Source of the DNA: Chloroflexota bacterium
GTDB lineage: Bacteria; Chloroflexota; Anaerolineae; Anaerolineales; UBA11858
Assembly (NCBI GenBank): GCA_018648225.1
Contig: JABGRQ010000106.1
Span: 1 to 39,456 of the forward strand
Direction: 5' to 3'
Length of the DNA: 39,456 nucleotides
Each line of letters opens with the position of its first letter. Positions within the stretch are counted from its first letter, which is position 1. Under the pieces are notes generated by a model, which saw only the letters and a program-made list of their open reading frames with translations, made no database searches and had not been told where the DNA came from. Shown one piece after another: positions 1 to 34,123 of the stretch. The position numbers were made by a program, and so were the translations under genes.

Positions 1-120
1 GAATTTGATGAGCGCCTGCGGATGGATATCACGTATATCGAGCGACGTTGCTTGCGGTTGGATATTCAAATATTCGTTCGCACGCTTTTTTCGGTTCTTC
101 AGCAAGAAGGCGCTTATTGA
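1..120 (+). CDS. C-terminal end of a polyprenyl-phosphate sugar-1-phosphate transferase (partial)
   Basis: The first 39 codons are open from the window edge to a TGA at 118-120. The peptide reads FDERLRMDITYIERR, then a second LD pair, an RTLFSVL segment and the terminal GAY. This matches the C-terminus of the bacterial sugar transferase family (WbaP/WcaJ-like, PF02397), whose members typically end in a LD-YIE-SL-LD-RT-GAY pattern. These enzymes transfer a sugar-1-phosphate to undecaprenyl phosphate at the inner face of the membrane, the first step of a Wzx/Wzy-pathway repeat unit. The position directly upstream of wzz-, wzy- and wzx-like genes fits that role. The catalytic domain and start lie outside the window, so sugar specificity cannot be judged. 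Confidence 0.82.
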   Translation, partial: EFDERLRMDITYIERRCLRLDIQIFVRTLFSVLQQEGAY

Positions 121-250
121 AATCACTTTGTGGCCATTGTTCACTGCCAATCCGAAAAGCAAGAAAGCGCCAATTTTTTAACATTTAATGAATTGGTGGA
201 ATGGTTCGATGTAGTGGTACCTTTTTCTTATATCTGTCACATATATCCAG

Positions 251-259
251 TGAGATAAT
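251..259 (+). promoter_or_regulatory. Possible extended -10 promoter ahead of the wzz-GGDEF gene
   Basis: The string TGaGATAAT fits an extended -10 element (TGn plus a hexamer one base off TATAAT). It lies in the AT-rich 205-bp gap between the sugar transferase and the wzz-like gene. No good -35 box is visible. A start near 266 would leave a leader of about 60 nt. The rest of the gap holds no gene I can recognise. Confidence 0.25.
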
Positions 260-293
260 TATTAGCAGATATACAGTTTTTATATTTTATTAA

Positions 294-318
294 GATTACT
301 ACACAAGTAATCAGGAGG
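294..318 (+). promoter_or_regulatory. Leader hairpin abutting a strong Shine-Dalgarno
   Basis: GATTACT (294-300) and AGTAATC (306-312) form a perfect 7-bp inverted repeat around a 5-nt loop. They are followed at once by AGGAGG (313-318), the ribosome binding site that fixes the ATG at 326. The stem could be a small leader structure or a protein-binding palindrome. Nothing in the sequence tells which. Confidence 0.4.
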
Positions 319-325
319 ACGGTCA

Positions 326-1447
326 ATGGAATTTCGCCTTTATCTCCAAATGCTCCGGCGTAGTTGGTGGATAATTTTTTTAACTGCCTTTTCTGCGTTG
401 ATCATTGCGCTCGGGTTTGTCTATTTCGCAACCCCCATCTACCGCGCCTCTACGCTGCTCATCGTCAGCCCCAATATTGAAGCCATCGGGGATGAAAATC
501 AATACCAGATCGTTAGCAGCCTGGTCGCGTTGGACAAACGCTCAATTGTAGGCACATACGCTGAAATTCTGAATAGCGGAACAGTCTACAATAACACGCT
601 TACAAAAATGGGCCTCGGCATTGAAAGTATGATCGACTATGAATACTTTACGGTGGTGCTTCCGGATGCCAATATTCTTGAGCTCGCCGTGGAGGGGCCG
701 AATCCGGCAACCGTAACTGTGCTTGCCAATAGCCTCAGCCAGAGTGCGGTTGAATATATTTCTGATCTCTACACAGTTTACGATATTGATATTCTGGATG
801 CAGCCACGCAACCCATAAAGCCAGTCCGCCCACAGCCTGTGCGCGATGCTGCCCTGGCTTTCACATTGGGCCTATTGCTTGGCGCCGTGCTGGCTATTGT
901 TCGAGAACAGTTACGCACACCCCTGGAAGCGCTACTGGAACGGACACAGGTTGACGGCATCTCCCAGGCATATAACCGCCGCTATTTCACCGATCAGCTT
1001 GATTCGCTCACGGGAAAATCTCCCGATATCCTGGTTGCACTGGGGCTGGTTAAGCTAGATGGCCTGAGCAACTATTTGACAGTTCTGCCGCAGCCGGTCA
1101 TTCAACAACTATTGCGCCAAATTACCGCAATCATGCGAAAAGAATTACGCGGAAATGATATTATCGGCCGTTGGGATGATGTTACCTTCTCAATTATGTT
1201 GCCAGACACACCCGGAAAAGCAGCATATAGCACGCTTGGCCGCGTCCAGATGGCGCTCTCGACCCCCATGCGTTTTAGCCATGATGGCGAGGTGATATTA
1301 CTTAGCCCCAAGGTTGGCATTGGGGAACGCCTACAAGGCGACGGAGCTACGGTTCTCGTTGAACGCGCCGAAGGCGCTCTAGATGAAGCGGAACACGATG
1401 AAAGTGGTTTGATCTTGTTTAAGACGCGCGCATTGATCGGGTTCTAG
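326..1447 (+). CDS. Wzz-like polysaccharide co-polymerase fused to a degenerate GGDEF domain
   Basis: The N-terminal part is a Wzz chain-length determinant. A transmembrane segment lies at about 14-36, followed by the typical YRAS.LLIVSP strand and an extracytoplasmic region. A proline-rich stretch (about 163-171) then leads into a second transmembrane segment at about 174-192. The cytoplasmic part (about 206-366) is not a Wzc tyrosine kinase. It follows the GGDEF family outline: DGISQAYNRRYF (210-221) for DxLTxLxNRRxF, LVKLDGL (241-247), RWDDVTF (282-288) at the RxGGDEF site, VGIG (330-333) and AEGALDEAEHDESG (348-361). The catalytic glycines and acidic residue are lost. RGND (275-278) keeps an RxxD exactly five residues before the signature, as in a c-di-GMP inhibitory site. 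It probably controls glycan chain length and may sense c-di-GMP; the sensing is inference. The start is set by AGGAGG at 313-318. Confidence 0.85.
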   Translation: MEFRLYLQMLRRSWWIIFLTAFSALIIALGFVYFATPIYRASTLLIVSPNIEAIGDENQYQIVSSLVALDKRSIVGTYAEILNSGTVYNNTLTKMGLGIESMIDYEYFTVVLPDANILELAVEGPNPATVTVLANSLSQSAVEYISDLYTVYDIDILDAATQPIKPVRPQPVRDAALAFTLGLLLGAVLAIVREQLRTPLEALLERTQVDGISQAYNRRYFTDQLDSLTGKSPDILVALGLVKLDGLSNYLTVLPQPVIQQLLRQITAIMRKELRGNDIIGRWDDVTFSIMLPDTPGKAAYSTLGRVQMALSTPMRFSHDGEVILLSPKVGIGERLQGDGATVLVERAEGALDEAEHDESGLILFKTRALIGF

Positions 1448-4454: not shown

Positions 4455-5516
4455 GTGAGACGGTTAGATCATCCCCGCGTGAGTGCGATCATCACCACCT
4501 ATAACTGCCAGGCATTCATCAGCGACGCGATTACCAGCGTACTTTCGCAAACGCGGCCCGTCGATGAATTCATCATCGTCGATGACGGTTCCACCGATGC
4601 CACGCGCACCGTCATCCAGCGTTTCTCTGGTTACGGTATCCAACTCATCACGCAAGAAAATCAGGGGCCGGGCGCGGCGCGCAATACCGGCATCCGGGCT
4701 TCCAGCGGGGATCTGATCGCCTTTTTGGATTGCGACGACATCTGGCTGCCCCATAAAACGCAGGTTCAGGCGGATTATTTAAAAGGATGGCCGCGGGACT
4801 CGCTCGTAGGTGCCCATAGCTGGTGGTGGAATACCTACTCCGATGTGTGGACTGTAAAACGACGCGGCATCCCTCGAGGCAAAGACAAAGCCCCGGAGAT
4901 TCTGATCCACAACTTTGTCGGCAACCCGTCGGCCACCCTGTTCCGCCGCGAACTCTTCGAGCAGGTCGGCATCTTCGATGAATCCCTGCACTGGGGCGAA
5001 GATTGGGAACTGTGGATGCGCATCCTGCAACAGCTTGAGATGGGTTTCATCCCCGAACCGCTCATTATCTACCGCTGGCATAGCGGCAATATTTCACACG
5101 AACGCATGTGGGAGCGCTTCACTTATCTGGAAAATATCGCCCTGACGCAAATTGGGGCATATCCTCATCGAATCCAACGCCTGTTTCTGCAAGGACGAGC
5201 CAAAGCGCGCTGGGCGCTGGAGCGAAGCTGGCATCTGCGTTCCCGTAACGCGCCGCGTATCAGGCGGCTTGGCTATCTCGGACGTGCTTTCTTATATTCC
5301 CCCTTTGAACAACTCGGCGAAAAATTTAAATTGCTCATCTCGACTGTCCTCGGCACAACAAAGTATCGCGCGCTGCAAGATTTGATGGCGCGGCGCGGAT
5401 CAGGCAAATCCGCCGCGCGGGCCGACAAAGACCTAAATAAACCGGATTGCCGGACGTTGCTCAAGCCCGCGCCAGGCCTGTCGTATTCATTCTGTTCACC
5501 CGAGAAAGCCGAATAA
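4455..5516 (+). CDS. Family 2 glycosyltransferase
   Basis: This is a GT-A-fold enzyme (GT2) of 353 residues. Seen in the N-terminal 120 residues are the strand VSAIITTYN (9-17), the nucleotide-binding VDDGSTD (42-48), GPGAARNTGI (71-80) and the DxD-type metal site FLDCDDIW (90-97). GEDWELWMR (about 176-184) matches the later acceptor/base region ED. The C-terminal third is basic and has no membrane helix, so the enzyme is cytosolic or membrane-peripheral. It is expected to add one sugar to the lipid-linked repeat unit. The start is GTG at 4455, 12 nt after the flippase stop, with only a weak AAAGG upstream. Donor and acceptor are unknown. Confidence 0.85.
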   Translation: MRRLDHPRVSAIITTYNCQAFISDAITSVLSQTRPVDEFIIVDDGSTDATRTVIQRFSGYGIQLITQENQGPGAARNTGIRASSGDLIAFLDCDDIWLPHKTQVQADYLKGWPRDSLVGAHSWWWNTYSDVWTVKRRGIPRGKDKAPEILIHNFVGNPSATLFRRELFEQVGIFDESLHWGEDWELWMRILQQLEMGFIPEPLIIYRWHSGNISHERMWERFTYLENIALTQIGAYPHRIQRLFLQGRAKARWALERSWHLRSRNAPRIRRLGYLGRAFLYSPFEQLGEKFKLLISTVLGTTKYRALQDLMARRGSGKSAARADKDLNKPDCRTLLKPAPGLSYSFCSPEKAE

Positions 5517-5518
5517 TT

Positions 5519-6661
5519 ATGTATATCGCCCACATGATCGACAGCCTGACGGTGGGGGGCGCGCAAACGCTAATTCTTACGTTCGCCAAAGCTTTAAGGG
5601 AAATCAATACCGAAAGTTCTATCCAGCACAAGTTTGCCGTCATCAATCTGGGTTATTCCACCATCCAAAAAAGCCTCGAAGACCAGGGAGCGGTTGTCTT
5701 TACGCTGGAAAGTGATCGCTTGATCAGCCCCAAAGAAAACCTGGCCTTATTGGGCATTTTACGGCGCGAAAAATTTGATGCGGTCCACTCCCATCTGACG
5801 CGCTCAAATATCCTGGGCGCTGTGCTCGGATCGCTGATGGGAATCCCATCGGTTTGCACATTGCACTCAACCAGCGAAGATCCGCGTCATCATAACCCCA
5901 AACGATATCAACTGGAAACCTGGGCCTTACAAAATTTTGCGCACAAAGTTTTTGCTGTGGGGCATTCGGTGGCGCAGGTGCATCAGGCCAGGTTCCAGTC
6001 CAAAACGATTGAAATTCTACTTAACCCTGTCGATGAGATTCCAGAGATTGCGCCCAAGGCGCGCCTCCGGTTGCGCGCGGCATTATCCGGTGATGCCCGA
6101 CGCCCGCTGATTATCGCCGTAGGGCGTTTACTACCACCAAAAGGTTATCAAGATTTAATATCTGCTTTTGCAATTCTGCGAAAAACACACCCGGAGGCTT
6201 TTCTGGCGATTGCTGGCAAAGGGTTCCTGCAAGACGATCTGGCGCAACAGATTGAGCGCAGCGGCTTACACGGCCACGCCCGGCTGCTAGGCAACCGCGA
6301 GGATGTGCCCGCGCTGTTGAAAGCCGCCGATATTTTTGCCAGTTCTTCGCATTGGGAGGGCCTGCCCCTGGCAATCCTGGAGGCTATGTCCGCGGGTTTG
6401 CCGATTGTTGCCACCGATGTCGGTGATATTGCCCACATCGTGAACGCGCAACGCGGATTGGTCGTGCCCCCTCACAAACCCAAAGCTATCGCAGATGCAC
6501 TCGCCCAATTATTATCCGACCCCGATCAAAGGCGCGCATTCGGCAAAGCTGGCATGGTTTACGTTGCCCGTGAGCACAATGCCCTGGCATGGACACAATA
6601 CCTGCTTGACACATACGAAGCCATCCAATACGATCGAAGCGTCCGCAATTTATTGCGGTAA
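5519..6661 (+). CDS. Family 4 glycosyltransferase (GT-B), first of five
   Basis: This is a 380-residue retaining GT-B glycosyltransferase. The N-terminal domain opens with IDSLTVGGAQTL (7-18), the GT4 donor-side glycine loop. The C-terminal Rossmann domain has AVGRLLPPKG (200-209) and the EX7E motif E280-E288 within EGLPLAILEAM. It should use an activated sugar nucleotide to extend the repeat unit. I chose the ATG at 5519, 2 nt after the upstream GT2 stop, over an in-frame ATG at 5447. The 24 extra residues would overlap the GT2 gene and precede the usual GT4 N-terminus. Tight spacing suggests coupling with the GT2. Confidence 0.86.
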   Translation: MYIAHMIDSLTVGGAQTLILTFAKALREINTESSIQHKFAVINLGYSTIQKSLEDQGAVVFTLESDRLISPKENLALLGILRREKFDAVHSHLTRSNILGAVLGSLMGIPSVCTLHSTSEDPRHHNPKRYQLETWALQNFAHKVFAVGHSVAQVHQARFQSKTIEILLNPVDEIPEIAPKARLRLRAALSGDARRPLIIAVGRLLPPKGYQDLISAFAILRKTHPEAFLAIAGKGFLQDDLAQQIERSGLHGHARLLGNREDVPALLKAADIFASSSHWEGLPLAILEAMSAGLPIVATDVGDIAHIVNAQRGLVVPPHKPKAIADALAQLLSDPDQRRAFGKAGMVYVAREHNALAWTQYLLDTYEAIQYDRSVRNLLR

Positions 6662-6702
6662 AATTGTGGCACTATTACGAGCCGTATTTCGGGAGACAAA
6701 TA

Positions 6703-7599
6703 ATGAGCGGGAAGAAACTTCTCAATTTAATTAAACGTGCATCTTCGCACCTGGAACAATATCGCGCAAATTTATCCGATACCCTGCATCTTTCACCCAA
6801 AGATTTAGCCTGGAAAGTTCGTTGGCGCATGAAGCACGACCGCAATCCACTCTTTATCCAGATTCAAGACAAATATGCGGTGAAAGACTATGCCCAGGCG
6901 CGCGGCATCCGCACAGCCGAGTTGTACTACGTCACCGAGCAACCCGATAGCATCCCCTTCGACACGCTGCCCGAAAACTTTTTTATCCGGGCAAACCACG
7001 GCTGCGGCTGGAATATCCTTTGCAAAGAAGGCATAATTTACTACTACAAAAGTGGTGAAGACCTCGGCAACCGCGATATGTCCAAATACATCATCACGCA
7101 GAATGATTGTATCCAATTCTGCAAAACCTGGCTGAATTCGATCTATTCAAAAAGCCAGTGGGCATACCAACACATCAAGCCCCGTATCATTGTTGAAGAA
7201 TTACTCATGCCGCGCGTTGGCGATGTATTGATTGATTATCGTTGTTTTACATTCAATGGCAAGGTCATCGCCATCAATGAAGATTCGCCGCTGCACAATA
7301 TGGTCGAAGGCGTATTTGTGGATGCCAACTGGCAACCCTTTGATATTCCTAAACATATTGAGAAACCCCCTGTACCATTTCCTGAGAGACCCGAAACCCT
7401 GGATGAAATCGTAGCTGCGGCAGAAACGCTCGGCCAGGGGCTTGATTTTGCCCGTATCGATATTTATGACACCACCCGCGGCATTACACTCGGAGAAATC
7501 ACGATCTACCCCTGGGGAGGCGAACTCAACACCCCTACCACTGACCCCGAGTTTAACCAATGGCTTGGCGATCATTGGGCGCTGCCAGAGCAGCATTAA
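6703..7599 (+). CDS. TupA-like ATP-grasp protein
   Basis: This 298-residue protein resembles the ATP-grasp TupA group (PF14305). WRMKHDRNPLF and DKYAVKDYA fall near residues 44-66. FFIRANHGCGWN gives the nucleotide-binding strand and glycine stretch, IIVEELL follows, and VLIDYRCFTFNGK and the terminal FARIDIYD...GEIT segment supply the acidic metal and ATP ligands. TupA of Bacillus contributes to teichuronopeptide synthesis, and homologues are common in surface glycan loci. By analogy this one may attach an amino acid or another carboxylate to the glycan; that is inference. An in-frame TTG exists at 6664, but GGGAG (6691-6695) upstream of the ATG at 6703 decides the start. The gap to the next gene is 127 nt and carries a repeat. 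Confidence 0.78.
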   Translation: MSGKKLLNLIKRASSHLEQYRANLSDTLHLSPKDLAWKVRWRMKHDRNPLFIQIQDKYAVKDYAQARGIRTAELYYVTEQPDSIPFDTLPENFFIRANHGCGWNILCKEGIIYYYKSGEDLGNRDMSKYIITQNDCIQFCKTWLNSIYSKSQWAYQHIKPRIIVEELLMPRVGDVLIDYRCFTFNGKVIAINEDSPLHNMVEGVFVDANWQPFDIPKHIEKPPVPFPERPETLDEIVAAAETLGQGLDFARIDIYDTTRGITLGEITIYPWGGELNTPTTDPEFNQWLGDHWALPEQH

Positions 7600-7612
7600 A
7601 CAACACAATTTC

Positions 7613-7650
7613 AACGCGAATTGCGCGAATGAACGAAAATCGCGAATAAA
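7613..7650 (+). repeat. GCGAAT-type short repeat tract
   Basis: The gap between the ATP-grasp gene and the next GT4 contains three close variants of CGCGAAT (AACGCGAATTGCGCGAATGA, then CGCGAATAAA). They lie in a 38-nt stretch followed by an AT-rich run. It looks like a truncated copy of a dispersed intergenic repeat. The remaining part of the gap (7651-7726) shows nothing further. Confidence 0.4.
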
Positions 7651-7726
7651 AAATTAGGAAATATTGGCGGAATTCGCCTATGCTCTCTGTGGCAAAAACC
7701 TGTTTGGTTCCGGGTTAGTTTATATC

Positions 7727-8893
7727 ATGAAAGAAAACCTCAGCGTTGTGATGCTGGTCAATGAATTCCCGCCGCTCAAGGTTGGCGGCGGCGAACGACA
7801 GGCCGAACAACTTTCCATGCAACTGGTCAGGCAGGGGCTTATCGTCGGCGTGATCACTCGCGGCACGCAAGGCTTGCCAGATTATGAAACGCGCGACGGT
7901 TTTTGGGTGCAACGCATCCAGCCGCGCGGCGCGGGTAAGCTAAAATCGCTCAGTTTTTTGTTTGGAACTATGCGACAGCTCTGGCAGCGGCGCAGCGACT
8001 ATCATATTATCCATGCGCACCTCGCCTTCACCCCGGCGATTGCTGCCGCGCTTACCGGAAAACTGCTGCGCAAACCGGTGATCGTCAAATTTGGCAACAG
8101 CGGCGAATTCGGTGACGTACAGGTTTCACAAGCCACGCGCCGCGGGCGCGTCAAACTAGCCTTGTTGCGGCGTTGGGGCAAGCGTTTTATCGCCCTGGAT
8201 CAAGCCATGCACGCTGAATTATTGAACGCCGGTTTTGACCCTCAACGCGTGCAGCGCATGGACAACGGCGTTGATGCCGTGCAATTCCAACCCGCAGATG
8301 ATCGCCAATTCCATAAAGCTGAACTCGGTCTGAGCGGGAAAACTGTGTTGCTTTTTATTGGCCGTCTTGAGGCGCAAAAATCGCTGCCATTGCTGATCGA
8401 GAGCTTCCACACGCTGTCGCAATCCCGCCCCAAAGTTTTTTTACTGCTGGTCGGTGACGGCCCCGACCGCCCGGCGCTGGCCGCGCAAATCTTGGCATTG
8501 GGATTGCGCGAGCAGGTGCGCTTCGTCGGCAACATCCGTGATGTGCGCCCGTATCTGGCCGCCAGCGATATTTTTGTACTGCCCTCCGTCTCAGAAGGCA
8601 TGTCAAACGCGCTGCTAGAAGCCATGTCGAGCGGGTTGGCCTGCGTAGTCACCCGCGTTGGCAACGCCGCCGAAATGCTGCAAAATGGCGCCTGCGGCGT
8701 GCTGGTCGAACCAGGCAATCCGCACAATCTCAGCGGCGCATTCAACATGCTGCTCCAAAATCCAAAACGCTTACACACATTCGGCCAGAAAGCGCGCCAG
8801 CGCGTCGAAGAGCATTATGCCATCCAGATTGTCGGGCGCAAATACCAGGCGCTGTATGAAGAGTTGCTCCATGCGAATTCTGTATTTCATTGA
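7727..8893 (+). CDS. Family 4 glycosyltransferase, second of five
   Basis: This is a 388-residue GT-B enzyme. The N-terminal domain begins VVMLVNEFPPLKVGGGE (7-23), the loop that often contacts the nucleotide diphosphate in GT4. HAHLAFTP (97-104) follows. The C-terminal domain has FIGRLEAQKS (210-219), LVGDGPDR (241-248) and the EX7E pair E290-E298 in EGMSNALLEAM. It is cytosolic with no membrane segment. An in-frame start at 7664 would add 21 residues that do not look like GT4 sequence, so the ATG at 7727 is preferred although its Shine-Dalgarno is weak. The stop at 8893 lies inside the next GT4 gene (start 8871), so the two are probably co-translated. Confidence 0.87.
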   Translation: MKENLSVVMLVNEFPPLKVGGGERQAEQLSMQLVRQGLIVGVITRGTQGLPDYETRDGFWVQRIQPRGAGKLKSLSFLFGTMRQLWQRRSDYHIIHAHLAFTPAIAAALTGKLLRKPVIVKFGNSGEFGDVQVSQATRRGRVKLALLRRWGKRFIALDQAMHAELLNAGFDPQRVQRMDNGVDAVQFQPADDRQFHKAELGLSGKTVLLFIGRLEAQKSLPLLIESFHTLSQSRPKVFLLLVGDGPDRPALAAQILALGLREQVRFVGNIRDVRPYLAASDIFVLPSVSEGMSNALLEAMSSGLACVVTRVGNAAEMLQNGACGVLVEPGNPHNLSGAFNMLLQNPKRLHTFGQKARQRVEEHYAIQIVGRKYQALYEELLHANSVFH

Positions 8894-9971
8894 CAGCCTT
8901 AAAGTCGGCGGAGCAGAGGTTTTGCTGCGCAATTTGGCTACAGGCGTGCTCGCGGCGGGACACGAAATCCATATAGGTTATTGCACCCCCGGCCCGCTGG
9001 AGAACGACTTCCAGCGCATGGGCATCAACCTTTATCGCCTGCCGCACCGGTGGCGGGTTGATCCGCGCTTGTTGCTGCGCATGTACCAACTTGTACGCCG
9101 TCTCCGTCCGGATGTCGTTCACACCCACCTCTTCAAGAGCGATCTCCACGGGCGGCTGGCGGGGCGCATGGGCAACGCAGGGCGGGTTATTTCCACATTG
9201 CATAGCACAGACCCCTGGGCGGCAAAATTTCCGCTGGGGCGCATCTACGGCGCCACGGCGCGCTTTGCCGATATTTTGATAGCCGTTTCAGATGAGGTCA
9301 AAGCGTATCACATCCGCATGACAGGCGTGCCGCCGGAAAAAATTATCAGCATTGCGAATGGAATTGATATACAGAGATTCGCCGCGCGGCCCAAAGTGGG
9401 CAGCCATTTTCGGGCGCAGTATAATATCCCGCGGGACGCGTTGCTCCTGGGGGCGGTCGGGAGGCTGGTCCCCGACAAAGGGCACAGCGATTTCTTACGA
9501 GCCGCGGCCCTAATTGCGGAATCACACCCCCGAGTTTGGTTCATGTTAGTTGGGGATGGACCACTCCGAGCGAGTCTTGAACGTCAAACTGAGGCAGCAG
9601 GTATCCGCCCCCGGGTAGTGTTCACCGGTCTCATCGAAGAGATTCCCGCCGCCATGCAAGCCCTGGATATACTCGTCTTCTCTTCCCTGCGCGAAGGTCT
9701 GCCGCTAACCCTGCTCGAAGGCATGGCGGCCTCCAAGCCGGTTGTCGCAACCCAGGTCGGCGGCATCGGCGGCGTGCTAAAAAACGGCGTGAGCGGCTGG
9801 CTGGTGCCCGCTGGCGACGCGTCTGCATTGGCTCATGCTTGCCTGCGTCTGATTGAAGCCCCGGTGCAAATCGCCCAGATGGGCAAAGCGGCGCAACAGT
9901 GCGTCGAGGTCGAGTACACGCTGGAGCGCATGGTCGCGCAAACGCTGCAACTTTACACGAAAACCCTATGA
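8871..9971 (+). CDS. Family 4 glycosyltransferase, third of five
   Basis: This is a 366-residue GT-B glycosyltransferase. Its N-terminus (MRILYFIDSLKVGGAE, 1-16) is almost the same as that of the GT4 at 5519, suggesting the two are paralogues. AVGRLVPDKGH (195-205), LVGDGPLR (226-233) and EX7E at E275-E283 in EGLPLTLLEGM mark the donor-binding domain. The start overlaps the previous gene by 23 nt, and the stop overlaps the next gene in an ATGA arrangement, so three glycosyltransferases in a row (7727-11116) form one translationally coupled unit. That arrangement fits consecutive steps on one repeat unit. Longer in-frame versions reaching back to 8658 would lie wholly inside the previous gene and were rejected. 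Confidence 0.86.
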   Translation: MRILYFIDSLKVGGAEVLLRNLATGVLAAGHEIHIGYCTPGPLENDFQRMGINLYRLPHRWRVDPRLLLRMYQLVRRLRPDVVHTHLFKSDLHGRLAGRMGNAGRVISTLHSTDPWAAKFPLGRIYGATARFADILIAVSDEVKAYHIRMTGVPPEKIISIANGIDIQRFAARPKVGSHFRAQYNIPRDALLLGAVGRLVPDKGHSDFLRAAALIAESHPRVWFMLVGDGPLRASLERQTEAAGIRPRVVFTGLIEEIPAAMQALDILVFSSLREGLPLTLLEGMAASKPVVATQVGGIGGVLKNGVSGWLVPAGDASALAHACLRLIEAPVQIAQMGKAAQQCVEVEYTLERMVAQTLQLYTKTL

Positions 9972-11116
9972 CCCCAAAGAAAATTCGCGTTTTTGAAATC
10001 GGGAAATCGACTGCCGGTGTAGGCGAGTATTTGCGCTGGCTGGCAGCGGGATTGGACAAAACCCAATTTGCGTTAACATTCGCCTGCATGTCCGAAGGTG
10101 GAGATGCTTTGGCCGCGAAGTTGGCGCAAATCGAGGGCGTGACAGCTTTCAGCATCCCCATGAATCGTTACAAAATCGCTCCGCTCTCCGACTTGCGTGC
10201 TTTGCTGCGCTTGAGGCGCGAGATACGGAGAGGCAATTTTGATTTGATCCATGCCCATGCCTCCAAGCCGGGGTTTATGGCGCGGTTGGCGGCGATTGGC
10301 ACAGGCATTCCGGCGATCTATTCTCCGCATTGTTTCGCATTTCACGCGGGCGCGCATTCGCTCGCGGCGCGGGGAATCGCGTTTTTTGAGCGCGGCGCGG
10401 CACGCTGGCTGACCAGTAAAATCATTGCCGTGGCGCACGCTGAAGTTGTGTTAGCCCAACGCTATCGGGTCGGCAGCACAGAACAGTTCATCACCATTCA
10501 TAGCGGCATTGACACAGCTCCCTTTGATATCCCGGTGCAAAAAGCTGCTGCGCGAGACGACCTGAATATTCCACCGGATGTGCCGCTGGTCGGCGCGGTG
10601 GGGCGCATGAGTCGGCAAAAAAATCCCTTGCTCTTTGTTCAGGCTGCAGCGTTAATTCACGCCCGGCTTCCCCAGGCTCATTTCATCTGGGTTGGCGACG
10701 GCCCGCTGATGGCCGCCGCAAAATCGCTGGCAGTTGAGTCTGGGTTGACAAAAATCCTGCACTTCCCCGGAAAGCGTAACGATATTCCTGAGCTGCTGGG
10801 CGCGTTAGATTTATTTGTGTTACCATCAGATTGGGAAGCATTCCCACTGACCATCCTTGAAGCCATGGCTGCCCGCCTGCCGGTGGTAGCCACCGACGTA
10901 ATGGGTATTCCCGAAATTGTAATTCCCGGTAAAACCGGGCTGCTCGTCCCACCAAATGATGCCCCTGCCCTTGCAAATGCCATCATACAACTATTGGCCA
11001 ACCCCAACCACGCCAAAATCATGGGCGAATGTGGTCGCCAGCACGTGGAAAGCGCATTTTCACGCCAACAAATGATCCGAAGTATCGCAGAAGCGTACCA
11101 AAGGACTGTTGCATAA
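9968..11116 (+). CDS. Family 4 glycosyltransferase, fourth of five
   Basis: This 382-residue GT-B protein has the N-terminal loop GKSTAGVGEYL (12-22), which differs from the VGGAE type of its neighbours. HAHASKPGFMARLAA (about 95-109) resembles a group of GT4 enzymes annotated as capsular glycosyltransferases. The C-terminal domain shows AVGRMSRQKNP (210-220), WVGDGPL (241-247) and EX7E at E290-E298 in EAFPLTILEAM. The ATG at 9968 overlaps the previous stop (ATGA), which fixes the start and implies coupling. A 63-nt gap with a good ribosome binding site separates it from the BcsB-like gene. Confidence 0.86.
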   Translation: MTPKKIRVFEIGKSTAGVGEYLRWLAAGLDKTQFALTFACMSEGGDALAAKLAQIEGVTAFSIPMNRYKIAPLSDLRALLRLRREIRRGNFDLIHAHASKPGFMARLAAIGTGIPAIYSPHCFAFHAGAHSLAARGIAFFERGAARWLTSKIIAVAHAEVVLAQRYRVGSTEQFITIHSGIDTAPFDIPVQKAAARDDLNIPPDVPLVGAVGRMSRQKNPLLFVQAAALIHARLPQAHFIWVGDGPLMAAAKSLAVESGLTKILHFPGKRNDIPELLGALDLFVLPSDWEAFPLTILEAMAARLPVVATDVMGIPEIVIPGKTGLLVPPNDAPALANAIIQLLANPNHAKIMGECGRQHVESAFSRQQMIRSIAEAYQRTVA

Positions 11117-30635: not shown

Positions 30636-31511
30636 TTAATCCCCCAAAAATTTCATCAGCAATGCATCCAGCTCTTCATTGGAATAATAATGCACGGTGA
30701 TGGTGCCACCCTTGTTGCCGTGCTTCATGCTGACTTTTGTGCCCAGGGCTGAACGCAAACGCTCTTCGAGTTCAACCACTTCCGGCGGCGGCACCGGACG
30801 CTCGCGCAGGGGTGGTTTCTCTCCACTCAATTTACGGACCAGTTCCTCGGTTTGGCGCACGCTGAGTTTTTTATCGATCACGGTTTGCAAGGCTGCGGCC
30901 TGGCTTTGCGATGTAGATAGGGCTAATAACGCCCGCGCGTGGCCCTCGCTGATTTTTTCTTCCAGCAAGGCTTGTTTGGCACTGGGCGGCAGATTGAGCA
31001 AGCGCAGCGTGTTGGTCACCGCCACGCGGCTTTTGCCCACGCGCTCGGCGATTTCGGCGTGCGCCAGGCCGAATTCGTCCACCAGTTGCTGGTAGGCATC
31101 GGCAGTTTCCAGCGGGCTGAGATCGGCGCGCTGCACATTTTCGATTAACGCCAACTCTAATCGCTGCTGATCGGTGGCCTCGCGCACCACCACGGGCACT
31201 TTTTCCAGCCCCGCTTCTTTGGAAGCCAGCAAACGCCGCTCTCCGGCAACGAGAATATAACCCGTAGTTTGTTCATCGCGGGTAACGATTAGCGGCTGGA
31301 TGATGCCGTGTTCACGAATGGATGCAGCCAGCTCGGCGATTCCAGTTGGCTTGAAGTGGACGCGCGGCTGACGAGGGTTGGGGCTGATCTGGCTCACCGG
31401 AACTTCAACTACCCCCGCGGCGAGATCCACCGAAGCAGACGGTAGCGCATCCATCGGAATCAACGCGTCTAAACCTTTACCCAGGCCTGAGCGTTTACGT
31501 GGAGATGTCAT
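30636..31511 (-). CDS. parB: Chromosome partitioning protein ParB
   Basis: This 291-residue ParB/Spo0J protein has a basic N-terminus RKRSGLGKGLDALI. The CTP-binding domain has ISPNPRQPR and VAGERRL (the GERR box). ELALIENVQRADLSPLE and a helix-turn-helix (EIAERVGKSRVAVTNTLRLL) follow, with a C-terminal dimerisation region rich in LEERLRSALG. It binds parS, loads and slides as a CTP-dependent clamp, and works with ParA in segregation of the origin region. The AAAGG before the start decides for the ATG at 31511 over an in-frame GTG at 31520 that is part of that ribosome binding site. No parS palindrome (GTTTCACGTGAAAC-like) was found in the window. Confidence 0.93.
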   Translation of the reverse strand: MTSPRKRSGLGKGLDALIPMDALPSASVDLAAGVVEVPVSQISPNPRQPRVHFKPTGIAELAASIREHGIIQPLIVTRDEQTTGYILVAGERRLLASKEAGLEKVPVVVREATDQQRLELALIENVQRADLSPLETADAYQQLVDEFGLAHAEIAERVGKSRVAVTNTLRLLNLPPSAKQALLEEKISEGHARALLALSTSQSQAAALQTVIDKKLSVRQTEELVRKLSGEKPPLRERPVPPPEVVELEERLRSALGTKVSMKHGNKGGTITVHYYSNEELDALLMKFLGD

Positions 31512-31590
31512 ATTCAGCACCTTTCAACAATCCTTCCGAAAAAAGTGTCTGTCCTAAAAAATCTGGCAGACGAGCTACTTTCGGTTCTAT

Positions 31591-32379
31591 TTACAATTTG
31601 GCCGGAACCGCCACACGATCTTTAGTCAGCAATTCTTTGGCTGCCGCCTGATAGGCTTTCCCGCCTGCCGAGTTGCGATCGTAGAGCGAAATTGGAATTC
31701 CATAGGAGGGCGCTTCAGCCAGGCGAACGCTGCGCGTGATAACGGCATCAAATACCTGATCGGGGAAATATTTGCGCACTTCTTCGACAACATCGCTCGA
31801 AAGGTTGGTGCGCGAGTCAAACATGGTCATCAATACACCGCGAATTTTGAGTTGCGGGGCAACCGTGCTGCGGATACGATTCAACGTTTGCACCAACTGG
31901 CCCAACCCCTCCAGCGCTAAATATTCGCACTGCACCGGAATAATCACGCCGTCGTTGGCCGCCACGAGCCCATTGATGGTTAACAGACCCAATGAAGGTG
32001 GGCAATCGATAAGGATATAGTCATATTTATCCTTCAGTTTTTCTAATCCTGAACGCAGGCGTTGTTCACGATGTTCTGCATCCACCAGTTCTACACTCGC
32101 CCCTGCCAAACCGGGATTTGCTGGAAGTAAATCCATATGGAGACGCGGGTTATGCAGAATCAGCTTTTCGGGGGCAGCCTTATCGATCAAGACTTCATAC
32201 GTGCCGCCTTTGATATTCTCCTTGTCCACGCCAATCGAGGAGGTGGCATTGGCCTGCGGGTCAATATCCACCAATAAAACTCGCTGTCCATTCTCCGACA
32301 GGAAAGCCCCCAGGTTGATCGCTGTTGTAGTTTTGCCAACGCCGCCTTTTTGGTTGGCAATTGCGTAAATCAATCCCAT
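31591..32379 (-). CDS. parA: Chromosome partitioning ATPase ParA (Soj)
   Basis: This 262-residue ParA/MinD-family ATPase has the deviant Walker A KGGVGKTTTAINL (about 11-23) and VDIDPQANATSS (about 39-50). DYILIDCPPSLGLL carries Walker B, and GVLMTMFDSRTNLS follows. It is the short chromosomal Soj type without an N-terminal DNA-binding domain. It forms ATP-dependent dimers on the nucleoid and is stimulated by ParB. AAAGGTG followed by TACTGT places the start at the ATG at 32379; the in-frame GTG at 32388 lies within the Shine-Dalgarno itself. Gene order parA-parB with a 79-nt gap is the usual one. Confidence 0.94.
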   Translation of the reverse strand: MGLIYAIANQKGGVGKTTTAINLGAFLSENGQRVLLVDIDPQANATSSIGVDKENIKGGTYEVLIDKAAPEKLILHNPRLHMDLLPANPGLAGASVELVDAEHREQRLRSGLEKLKDKYDYILIDCPPSLGLLTINGLVAANDGVIIPVQCEYLALEGLGQLVQTLNRIRSTVAPQLKIRGVLMTMFDSRTNLSSDVVEEVRKYFPDQVFDAVITRSVRLAEAPSYGIPISLYDRNSAGGKAYQAAAKELLTKDRVAVPAKL

Positions 32380-32436
32380 ACAGTACACCTTTTTATCTTT
32401 TGGGTTTTTGCTACCGTGAACAGGAAGCCTTCATCT

Positions 32437-33261
32437 TCAAACTTCAAGGGGAATACTCGCTAAACCGCAACGCGTCACCGAGTCTGCCGCCAATCGATTC
32501 GCAAACACTGCCGCTTCAAACGGGTCTTGCGTGCGCTGGTAATGAATAGCATATGCAGCAGCGAAAATATCGCCAGCGCCCGTAGCATCTACTTCCGCAA
32601 TCGAGGGCGCCGCGATTGGATACTGTTCTCCAGCAATAAAAACGCGTGCGCCAGAAGAACCACAAGTCACTACAAGATGGTGAGCTTCAGCGGCCATTGC
32701 GGCAATTACTGCTTCGTCGTACTGGACATCTTCCTCACTCATCACAATCACGCCCTTCTTCTGTAGCGCCGGGAGGCTATTACGCCAATCGGCGGGCGAA
32801 ATATGCCCAGCGGCATCCCACCGACGCAGCCAACCTTGCACCGTTGCCAGTACCAAACTCTCTGGAAATTCGTTGGCTATTTCGGGTTCAATTTCCTGCG
32901 CAATCGGCGCCAGATGAACCAACGGCGCAATGCGCCATTCGGCAGGAATCACATCCAGTGTAAGGGGCTGGGCAATGCTTTCAATCCGCTGGATGCGTCC
33001 GTGGGGTGTGGCAATATTCTCGAAGATGGTTGTTTTTTCTGCGGGGATGCTAAGAATCTGCACACCCCGTTCAAGCAACAAACCAAATTGCTCGCCAGCG
33101 CCCCAAGAAGTCACCAGCCCGACACGCTGGCCCAATGCCCGGGCGGTTAATGCCGAATACGCTGCCGTACCGCCGAGGCGCAAACCATGCGGAGTAATAT
33201 CGAGCGCAATATGCCCAACAATCAAATAGTCAATGGCTTCAACGCTGGGAGGGCGGAGCAT
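32437..33261 (-). CDS. PfkB-family carbohydrate or nucleoside kinase
   Basis: This 274-residue ribokinase-like protein starts with IVGHIALD (14-21) and LGGTAAYSALTARALG (29-44), the sugar-binding GG motif. It ends with the anion-hole DATGAGDIFAAAY (225-237), where D231 is the catalytic base. It is slightly short for the family (usually 300 or more), and the lid is reduced. Substrate unknown. TATAAT read on the minus strand (33268-33273) lies so close to the ATG that a transcript from it would be nearly leaderless. It sits between jag and parA, where mnmE, mnmG and rsmG are often found in other bacteria. Confidence 0.83.
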   Translation of the reverse strand: MLRPPSVEAIDYLIVGHIALDITPHGLRLGGTAAYSALTARALGQRVGLVTSWGAGEQFGLLLERGVQILSIPAEKTTIFENIATPHGRIQRIESIAQPLTLDVIPAEWRIAPLVHLAPIAQEIEPEIANEFPESLVLATVQGWLRRWDAAGHISPADWRNSLPALQKKGVIVMSEEDVQYDEAVIAAMAAEAHHLVVTCGSSGARVFIAGEQYPIAAPSIAEVDATGAGDIFAAAYAIHYQRTQDPFEAAVFANRLAADSVTRCGLASIPLEV

Positions 33262-33287
33262 GGCTAAATTATACCTGAGTTAAGCAA

Positions 33288-33326
33288 AGCAGGGTGTGCG
33301 CCTGGGATCCACGCAAACACCCTGCT
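33288..33326 (-). other. Inverted repeat between jag and the PfkB gene
   Basis: AGCAGGGTGT (33288-33297) pairs perfectly with ACACCCTGCT (33317-33326), and GCG/CGC extends the stem past a small bulge. No long T-run follows on either strand, so it may be a second weak terminator or a regulatory palindrome just upstream of the kinase gene. Confidence 0.45.
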
Positions 33327-33330
33327 CGGT

Positions 33331-33362
33331 AAAAAAGCGACAGGCTCTGGTGGACACCTGTC
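33331..33362 (-). terminator. Rho-independent terminator after jag
   Basis: Read on the minus strand, GACAGG (33362-33357) pairs with CCTGTC (33344-33339). GC and six T follow (33336-33331). It starts 8 nt beyond the jag stop codon and should end the rpmH-to-jag transcript. Confidence 0.7.
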
Positions 33363-33370
33363 ATCTGATT

Positions 33371-34123
33371 TCAACTACGCTGGTAAATGACAACCTTGCG
33401 ATTGCGGCCTGTGCCAACGCTCTCGGTATATACACTACTGTCATCTTGCAATTCCAGGTGTGCAATCCGACGCTCATTGGCGGGCATCGGTTCCAGCGAT
33501 TGGCTGCGGCCAGTCTGAGCGACTTGTTCAGCCACGCGCCGCGCCAGACGGCTAATTTGCTGCGAACGGCGCTGGCGAAAACCTTCGACATCAATTACCA
33601 GCGGCATGGCTCGCTCCAGCTCTTTGCCGAGCATCAGACGGGCGATATACTGCAATGCTTCAAGCGTTTCGCCGCGGCTGCCAATTAAAACGCTAAGGTC
33701 ATCACCTGAAATATCGGCGTGCACGGGGACGCGGTCGAGGGGGCCATAAGGCTCGCCCAGATAGGTGTCGATTTTGGTGTCTTCGAGGTGCATTTTGTCG
33801 AGCAGATCGCGCAATATATCATGGACGAGCTGCAAAGTGTATGCTTGATCTTCGGATGACGCGACCGATGCGGTAGATTCTGTCGAGGAGCTGGTATCGG
33901 CTTCTTTCGCTGAAACCGCCGCGGGTACAGGTTCCGCATCGTCCTTGACAATCAGCATAATGCGCGCCTGTCGCGAACCCAATCCAAATAAACCGGTACT
34001 GCCTTCATCCAACACTTTTACATCCACAGCCGCGCGGACAAGGCCCAAATCGGAAAGACCTTTTTCAATCGCTTCGTCTATCGATGGGGCGATGACTTCG
34101 AGGGTAGCGTGTTTTTCCGACAT
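33371..34123 (-). CDS. jag: Jag/KhpB RNA-binding protein
   Basis: This 250-residue protein has the three-part Jag layout. The Jag-N domain (about 1-60) holds VIAPSIDEAIEKGLSDLG and GLFGLGSRQARI. An acidic, Ser/Thr/Ala-rich linker (about 62-97) follows, then a KH domain with the loop IGSRGETLEALQYIARL. The C-terminal R3H domain has RSQSLEPMPANERRIAHLEL, where the R-x3-H order is met by the final RRIAH. Jag/KhpB partners KhpA and influences cell-wall elongation and division through RNA binding in Gram-positive bacteria. It lies directly downstream of yidC (14 nt), the usual order. Confidence 0.9.
   Translation of the reverse strand: MSEKHATLEVIAPSIDEAIEKGLSDLGLVRAAVDVKVLDEGSTGLFGLGSRQARIMLIVKDDAEPVPAAVSAKEADTSSSTESTASVASSEDQAYTLQLVHDILRDLLDKMHLEDTKIDTYLGEPYGPLDRVPVHADISGDDLSVLIGSRGETLEALQYIARLMLGKELERAMPLVIDVEGFRQRRSQQISRLARRVAEQVAQTGRSQSLEPMPANERRIAHLELQDDSSVYTESVGTGRNRKVVIYQRS

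Follow-up and report, generated by a model that had tools for sequence, protein, structure and literature searches.

We describe a Chloroflexota protein in which a Wzz-type co-polymerase continues into a degenerate GGDEF domain. It has 373 amino acids and is encoded by an open reading frame at positions 326..1447 of the window, that is, of the whole stretch of 39,456 nucleotides that was analyzed (features lie on the forward strand unless marked otherwise). Our main reading, to which we assign a probability of roughly two in three, is that the fusion is a Wzz-type co-polymerase carrying a catalytically dead GGDEF domain as a putative receptor of c-di-GMP. Direct control of the Wzx/Wzy co-polymerase by c-di-GMP is the best reading of this arrangement. 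Polysaccharide synthesis has known receptors of this kind; what is new, in the literature searched, is the direct fusion to a Wzx/Wzy co-polymerase, and our search (limited for subscription journals) found no paper on a Wzz-GGDEF fusion.

Domain architecture and fold

The ATG of the fusion gene is directly preceded by AGGAGG. The N-terminal part of the protein matches Wzz in Pfam (PF02706, residues 6-94, positions 341..607; E 5.2e-10, 39.9 bits, cut-off 25.5), and the best NCBIfam match on this side is TIGR01006 (CspC family), with an E value of 1e-15 yet below its cut-off. Hydropathy gives two transmembrane segments, TM1 at residues 16-34 (371..427; helix 14-34 in the structural model) and TM2 at residues 174-192 (845..901; within the model helix 171-208). 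Together with the Wzz profile they bear out the pair of Wzz-type segments noticed in a preliminary description of this DNA, and they enclose about 140 extracytoplasmic residues, as in the layout of CpsC-type co-polymerases. By its profile, its two membrane segments and the Wzy and Wzx genes encoded with it, the protein classes as Wzz-type.

The C-terminal part is a degenerate GGDEF domain (residues 208-358, positions 947..1399), recognized by Pfam, Foldseek and superposition alike. The preliminary description had drawn this domain from its sequence outline and named a profile search and a structure prediction as the ways to check it; both agreed. The match to PF00990 has an E value of 2.5e-12 (47.3 bits, cut-off 23.8). 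In the AlphaFold model (pLDDT 86.2) the fold is that of GGDEF domains, with diguanylate cyclases as the top Foldseek matches (E ~2.5e-12) and a superposition on PleD (1w25_A) with Z 23.6 and rmsd 1.9 Å over 163 residues (VIA-align). Profile and fold thus both place the domain in the GGDEF superfamily. A single unbroken helix, residues 171-208 of the model, forms TM2 and the entry into the GGDEF fold. Pfam gave no match to a GAF domain in the protein. No known RNA, riboswitches included, reached the gathering score in the window, and promoter and terminator matches near the fusion gene were no commoner than in shuffled sequence.

At the position of GG(D/E)EF the alignment shows DDVTF (residues 284-288, 1175..1189), and the equivalents of D327, K332, N335, D344, GG, E370 and E371 (PleD numbering) are all replaced, the residues for metal, phosphate and base of an active diguanylate cyclase among them. 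The inhibitory site (I-site) is retained. R275-G-N-D278 (1148..1159) aligns with R359xxD362 of PleD, and the protein reads RGND, then IIGRW, then DDVTF where PleD has R359xxD362-LPCRY-GGEEF, so the RxxD stands exactly five residues ahead of the signature position, as the preliminary description had it. The third I-site residue, PleD R390, corresponds to R306 (1241..1243); for PleD R313 the alignment is unsure. Judged from sequence, with a dead active site (A-site), RxxD five residues upstream and a secondary Arg, the domain would belong with the degenerate I-site receptors.

Gene cluster and companion protein

The contig begins inside the gene of an initiating sugar transferase, of which the last 39 codons remain (Bac_transf, PF02397 type; 1..120); a 201-aa open frame in the related locus L009 has the same C-terminus. 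The fusion gene is followed by a Wzy/O-antigen ligase-type polymerase (PF04932; 1500..2966), a Wzx-type flippase (PF13440; 2976..4442), a series of glycosyltransferases (GT2 and several GT4, 4455..11116) with a TupA-like ATP-grasp protein in their midst (6664-7599), and a BcsB-like protein of the cellulose synthase subunit family (PF03170; 11180..13450), all assigned by Pfam families. The BcsB-like gene is recurrent in these clusters, and in L115, L118, L122, L123, L129 and L145 it comes directly after the fusion. The usual order is companion, initiating sugar transferase, GT4, Wzz-GGDEF, Wzy, Wzx and glycosyltransferases, often with the BcsB-like gene, and in most loci the fusion precedes Wzy and Wzx. 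Adjoining the glycan cluster on the minus strand (30636-34123) are parB, parA and a Jag/KhpB-type gene, a usual origin-proximal set.

The interpretation in the preliminary description is supported in part; its idea that c-di-GMP replaces phosphotyrosine control is a conjecture. In the neighbourhoods of the fusions, which extended at most ~10 kb to either side and often less where a contig ended, no BY-kinase relative turned up, and the C-terminal domain is a GGDEF domain in place of the BY-kinase, or separate partner kinase, of the PCP-2a and PCP-2b classes. A partner kinase could be encoded elsewhere in the genome. However, unfused Wzz without a nearby kinase occur in the same gene order, so the lack of a neighbouring kinase does not set the fusions apart, and the same genome carries an ordinary Wzz-BY-kinase of 575 aa in another locus on a different contig. 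The loci of the Wzz-BY-kinase and of a kinase-less Wzz in this genome are L141:3261-4985 (+) and L142:6678-8331 (+). The kinase-less Wzz, on a further contig and near its end, has 352 aa and adjoins an apparent low-molecular-weight tyrosine phosphatase, recognized by eye only.

Most clusters of this kind also contain what we call the companion, a protein of ~310 aa with multiple transmembrane segments and a second degenerate GGDEF domain in its C-terminal part, usually encoded immediately upstream of the initiating sugar transferase (for example L012:2903-3829 (+), L015:1965-2843 (+) and L116:15149-16072 (-)). Its Pfam scores for GGDEF fall just above or just below the cut-off, its fold matches GGDEF domains in a model of middling confidence, and its I-site has the Arg in 18 of 23 cases and the Asp in 22 of 23. 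No companion homologue was recovered from the assembly of the genome under study; since the contig starts only within the sugar transferase gene, it was probably lost at the contig end. In three closely related MAGs (upstream stretches: window 1-325, L009 1-815, L010 1-1053) the contigs all stop within ~0.3-1 kb upstream of the fusion gene, which leaves each of them without the companion.

We surveyed companion and fusion in 57 loci. Fusions with an intact I-site were accompanied by an intact companion in 13 cases, and by one without RxxD in four, with no companion seen in 16 (of which two are cut by contig ends), while the five fusions that have lost the I-site, mostly from one clade, all had an intact companion. 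The companion is also present at loci with unfused Wzz, where the corresponding numbers were 13, one and five. Complementary loss of RxxD between companion and fusion was not significant (Fisher p 0.17).

Distribution and conservation of the fusions

In unbiased profile searches 29 of 396 genomes of the class had a full-length fusion, as did 20 of 400 genomes drawn across the phylum, and unfused Wzz-only relatives also came up; Herpetosiphon isolates also carry the full-length fusion. Other Wzz-GGDEF fusions, for which the preliminary description had suggested looking in databases, are thus present in many genomes, so the fusion is no product of misassembly. It represents a family of the Chloroflexota rather than one local oddity, with identities to the window protein down to ~22%. 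A pattern search gave ten full-length relatives (Anaerolineae, Herpetosiphon and other records) and one near-identical sequence; one of its patterns was NDIIGRWD, hence these ten are biased towards the motif. A match outside the Chloroflexota, L018, comes from a MAG labelled Nitrosomonas and is most likely a mis-binned contig.

We compared 38 fusions (alignment A2) with PleD and 35 canonical GGDEF domains from the same and related genomes. D327 and E371 were kept in none of the 38, K332 in at most one, N335 in two and D344 in three. GG(D/E)EF was found in 0/38, and no fusion had a working cyclase site; homologues with one would, by the preliminary description, have counted against its receptor idea. 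Column retention was ranked for 33 non-redundant fusions over 30 columns near-invariant in the controls: the ten A-site columns had a mean retention of ~7%, while the I-site Asp (97%) and Arg (91%) were both in the top four. RxxD was intact in 33 of the 38 fusions, and in 23 of 28 rows from outside the motif-biased search with the window protein left out. The equivalent of PleD R390 is R in only 28/38 and K in 3/38. The I-site was lost in the four members of clade L035-L038, in which Pro replaces the Arg, and in L039, where an insertion breaks RxxD. Both the losses and the incomplete retention of the secondary Arg count against the main reading.

The GGDEF part is not decaying. Compared with the 99%-identical L009, it showed 33.5 synonymous and 4.5 non-synonymous differences, and this low dN/dS (0.036, against 0.02 for the Wzz part) indicates that the domain is maintained under strong purifying selection. 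A single origin of the fusion was rejected: in the tree of the Wzz part the fused and unfused states require seven changes, at least three of them forced by well-supported branches, so gain and loss of the GGDEF part probably recur. From this tree the GGDEF part appears as a module gained or lost while the Wzy/Wzx setting persists, and Wzz can evidently work without it, a further point against the main reading.

These data have to be weighed against the view that the dead GGDEF domain is a ligand-free scaffold for dimers or oligomers, or a surface on which Wzy, the companion or a glycosyltransferase docks, with RxxD kept for fold or contacts. We consider this unlikely, although part of the conservation agrees with it. 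The equivalents of PleD D292, F372, R366, L347 and G416, probably structural columns, show about the same retention as the I-site; RWD[DN] at the former active site is conserved in about half of the fusions, and the clade with Pro for Arg keeps ARWDD. The D292/R366 pair, which we take to connect the stalk helix with the GGDEF domain, would by its retention suit signal transmission. RxxD is found in 35/35 of the canonical domains, so that in the fusions it was most simply inherited from active cyclases, not invented, and its retention by itself needs no new function. Against a scaffold, proven receptors show the same pattern, and each of the five fusions without the motif is paired with a companion whose RxxD is intact (a small sample, mostly one clade). 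Moreover, the R202A variant of YdaK retains its fold (PMC7064775), so the I-site Arg is not needed for folding in that protein.

Comparison with known systems and proposed mechanism

The closest parallels to a receptor function come from other polysaccharide systems. PssE, encoded in the pss exopolysaccharide operon of Listeria monocytogenes and a receptor by the I-site of its degenerate GGDEF domain, is like the fusion a membrane protein; it has a dead DKDDA site with RxxD five residues upstream and binds two c-di-GMP per protein (PMC4125290). It is however a separate protein from another kind of polysaccharide operon, and the fusion is the Wzz of a Wzx/Wzy cluster. YdaK of B. subtilis, from a putative EPS operon, combines transmembrane segments with a degenerate GGDEF domain and a working I-site Arg, and R202A abolishes its c-di-GMP binding (PMC7064775). 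With four transmembrane segments and no Wzz domain, and acting with DgcK and the YdaMN proteins, it differs from the fusion, and its layout is most resembled by the companion gene. The preliminary description had pointed to PelD, an inner-membrane protein needed for polymer synthesis that binds dimeric c-di-GMP at the RxxD of a degenerate GGDEF domain (PMC2170427, PMC8461298). This parallel stands for the dead A-site with RxxD, as in PssE and YdaK, but not for the four transmembrane segments, the GAF domain and the Pel operon of PelD, since the fusion has two segments and lies in a Wzx/Wzy cluster. BcsE likewise has a dead GGDEF with RxxD and binds dimeric c-di-GMP in cellulose secretion (PMC7439463); unlike the fusion it is a REC-GGDEF tandem, membrane-recruited by BcsF, and no co-polymerase.

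On the side of the co-polymerases, Wzc and CpsCD (PCP-2a/2b) share with the fusion the Wzz-type membrane part, the C-terminal cytoplasmic regulatory module and the place beside Wzy and Wzx, and phosphorylation governs the octamer assembly of Wzc-type proteins (PMC12220298). Their module is a Walker-motif tyrosine kinase, whereas that of the fusion is a GGDEF domain, and no kinase is nearby. In Alg44 a c-di-GMP sensor sits on the co-polymerase of alginate (PMC8461298), the role predicted for the fusion; there the sensor is a PilZ domain and the pathway is synthase-dependent.

In the mechanism that we propose, c-di-GMP supplied by the other diguanylate cyclases of the genome would bind, probably as an intercalated dimer, at R275, D278 and R306 and would cross-link adjacent GGDEF domains within the Wzz oligomer. 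The change could travel through the unbroken helix into TM2, and the Wzz ring would then work differently with Wzy, so that polymer synthesis is switched on or lengthened. The bridging c-di-GMP dimers might be the counterpart of phosphorylation in Wzc-type octamer assembly. More tentatively, and with something short of an even chance, a whole branch of Chloroflexota Wzx/Wzy systems might be run post-translationally by c-di-GMP instead of tyrosine phosphorylation, the Wzz ring being clamped through its dead GGDEF domains, which would set polymer length or output, and a second dead-GGDEF membrane protein, often beside the initiating sugar transferase, sharing or replacing this role.

The fusion could also bind c-di-GMP mainly to recruit or restrain a cyclase or the companion, as a local signalling hub with little direct effect on chain length. 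YdaK touches its cyclase through the I-site (PMC7064775), and a companion GGDEF protein is found in most of the same clusters; yet we recognized no dedicated cyclase gene in the clusters, and the direct fusion to a co-polymerase argues for a direct output, which makes this reading improbable. We dismiss as highly improbable a domain that is still an enzyme, or a GTP binder at the old active site, because the A-site residues are replaced in the window protein and in nearly all relatives, as expected from the earlier judgement that cyclase activity was very unlikely, even if one G and the metal Asp position survive in a handful of outlying members (e.g., GDDTF) and VCA0965 is an example of an AGDEF site with activity (PMC3974145).

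For synthase-dependent polymers such as cellulose, alginate and Pel there is ample documentation that c-di-GMP exerts direct allosteric control. For Wzx/Wzy systems, in contrast, the control described is a cycle of phosphorylation of the co-polymerase (PMC12220298). If direct control of the fusion by c-di-GMP is true, its one-protein link between the messenger and a Wzy-type co-polymerase would join both modes, and the signalling from co-polymerase to Wzy would become testable through a small-molecule switch. The fused and unfused Wzz in identical gene order provide a natural experiment.

c-di-GMP proteins of the genome

The genome that contains the fusion has ~8 strong GGDEF matches, seven of them shown with complete cyclase motifs, and six HD-GYP matches. 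EAL and PilZ domains were not found in it, while the control genomes gave matches; PilZ was consequently rejected as its c-di-GMP receptor. With GGDEF and HD-GYP present and no PilZ, the gene content suggests that the cells probably synthesize c-di-GMP and lack its usual receptor, and the fusion is a candidate receptor for this genome. In two relatives small PilZ-type genes lie less than 10 kb from the fusion, at L117:16367-16735 (+) and L115:349-702 (-).
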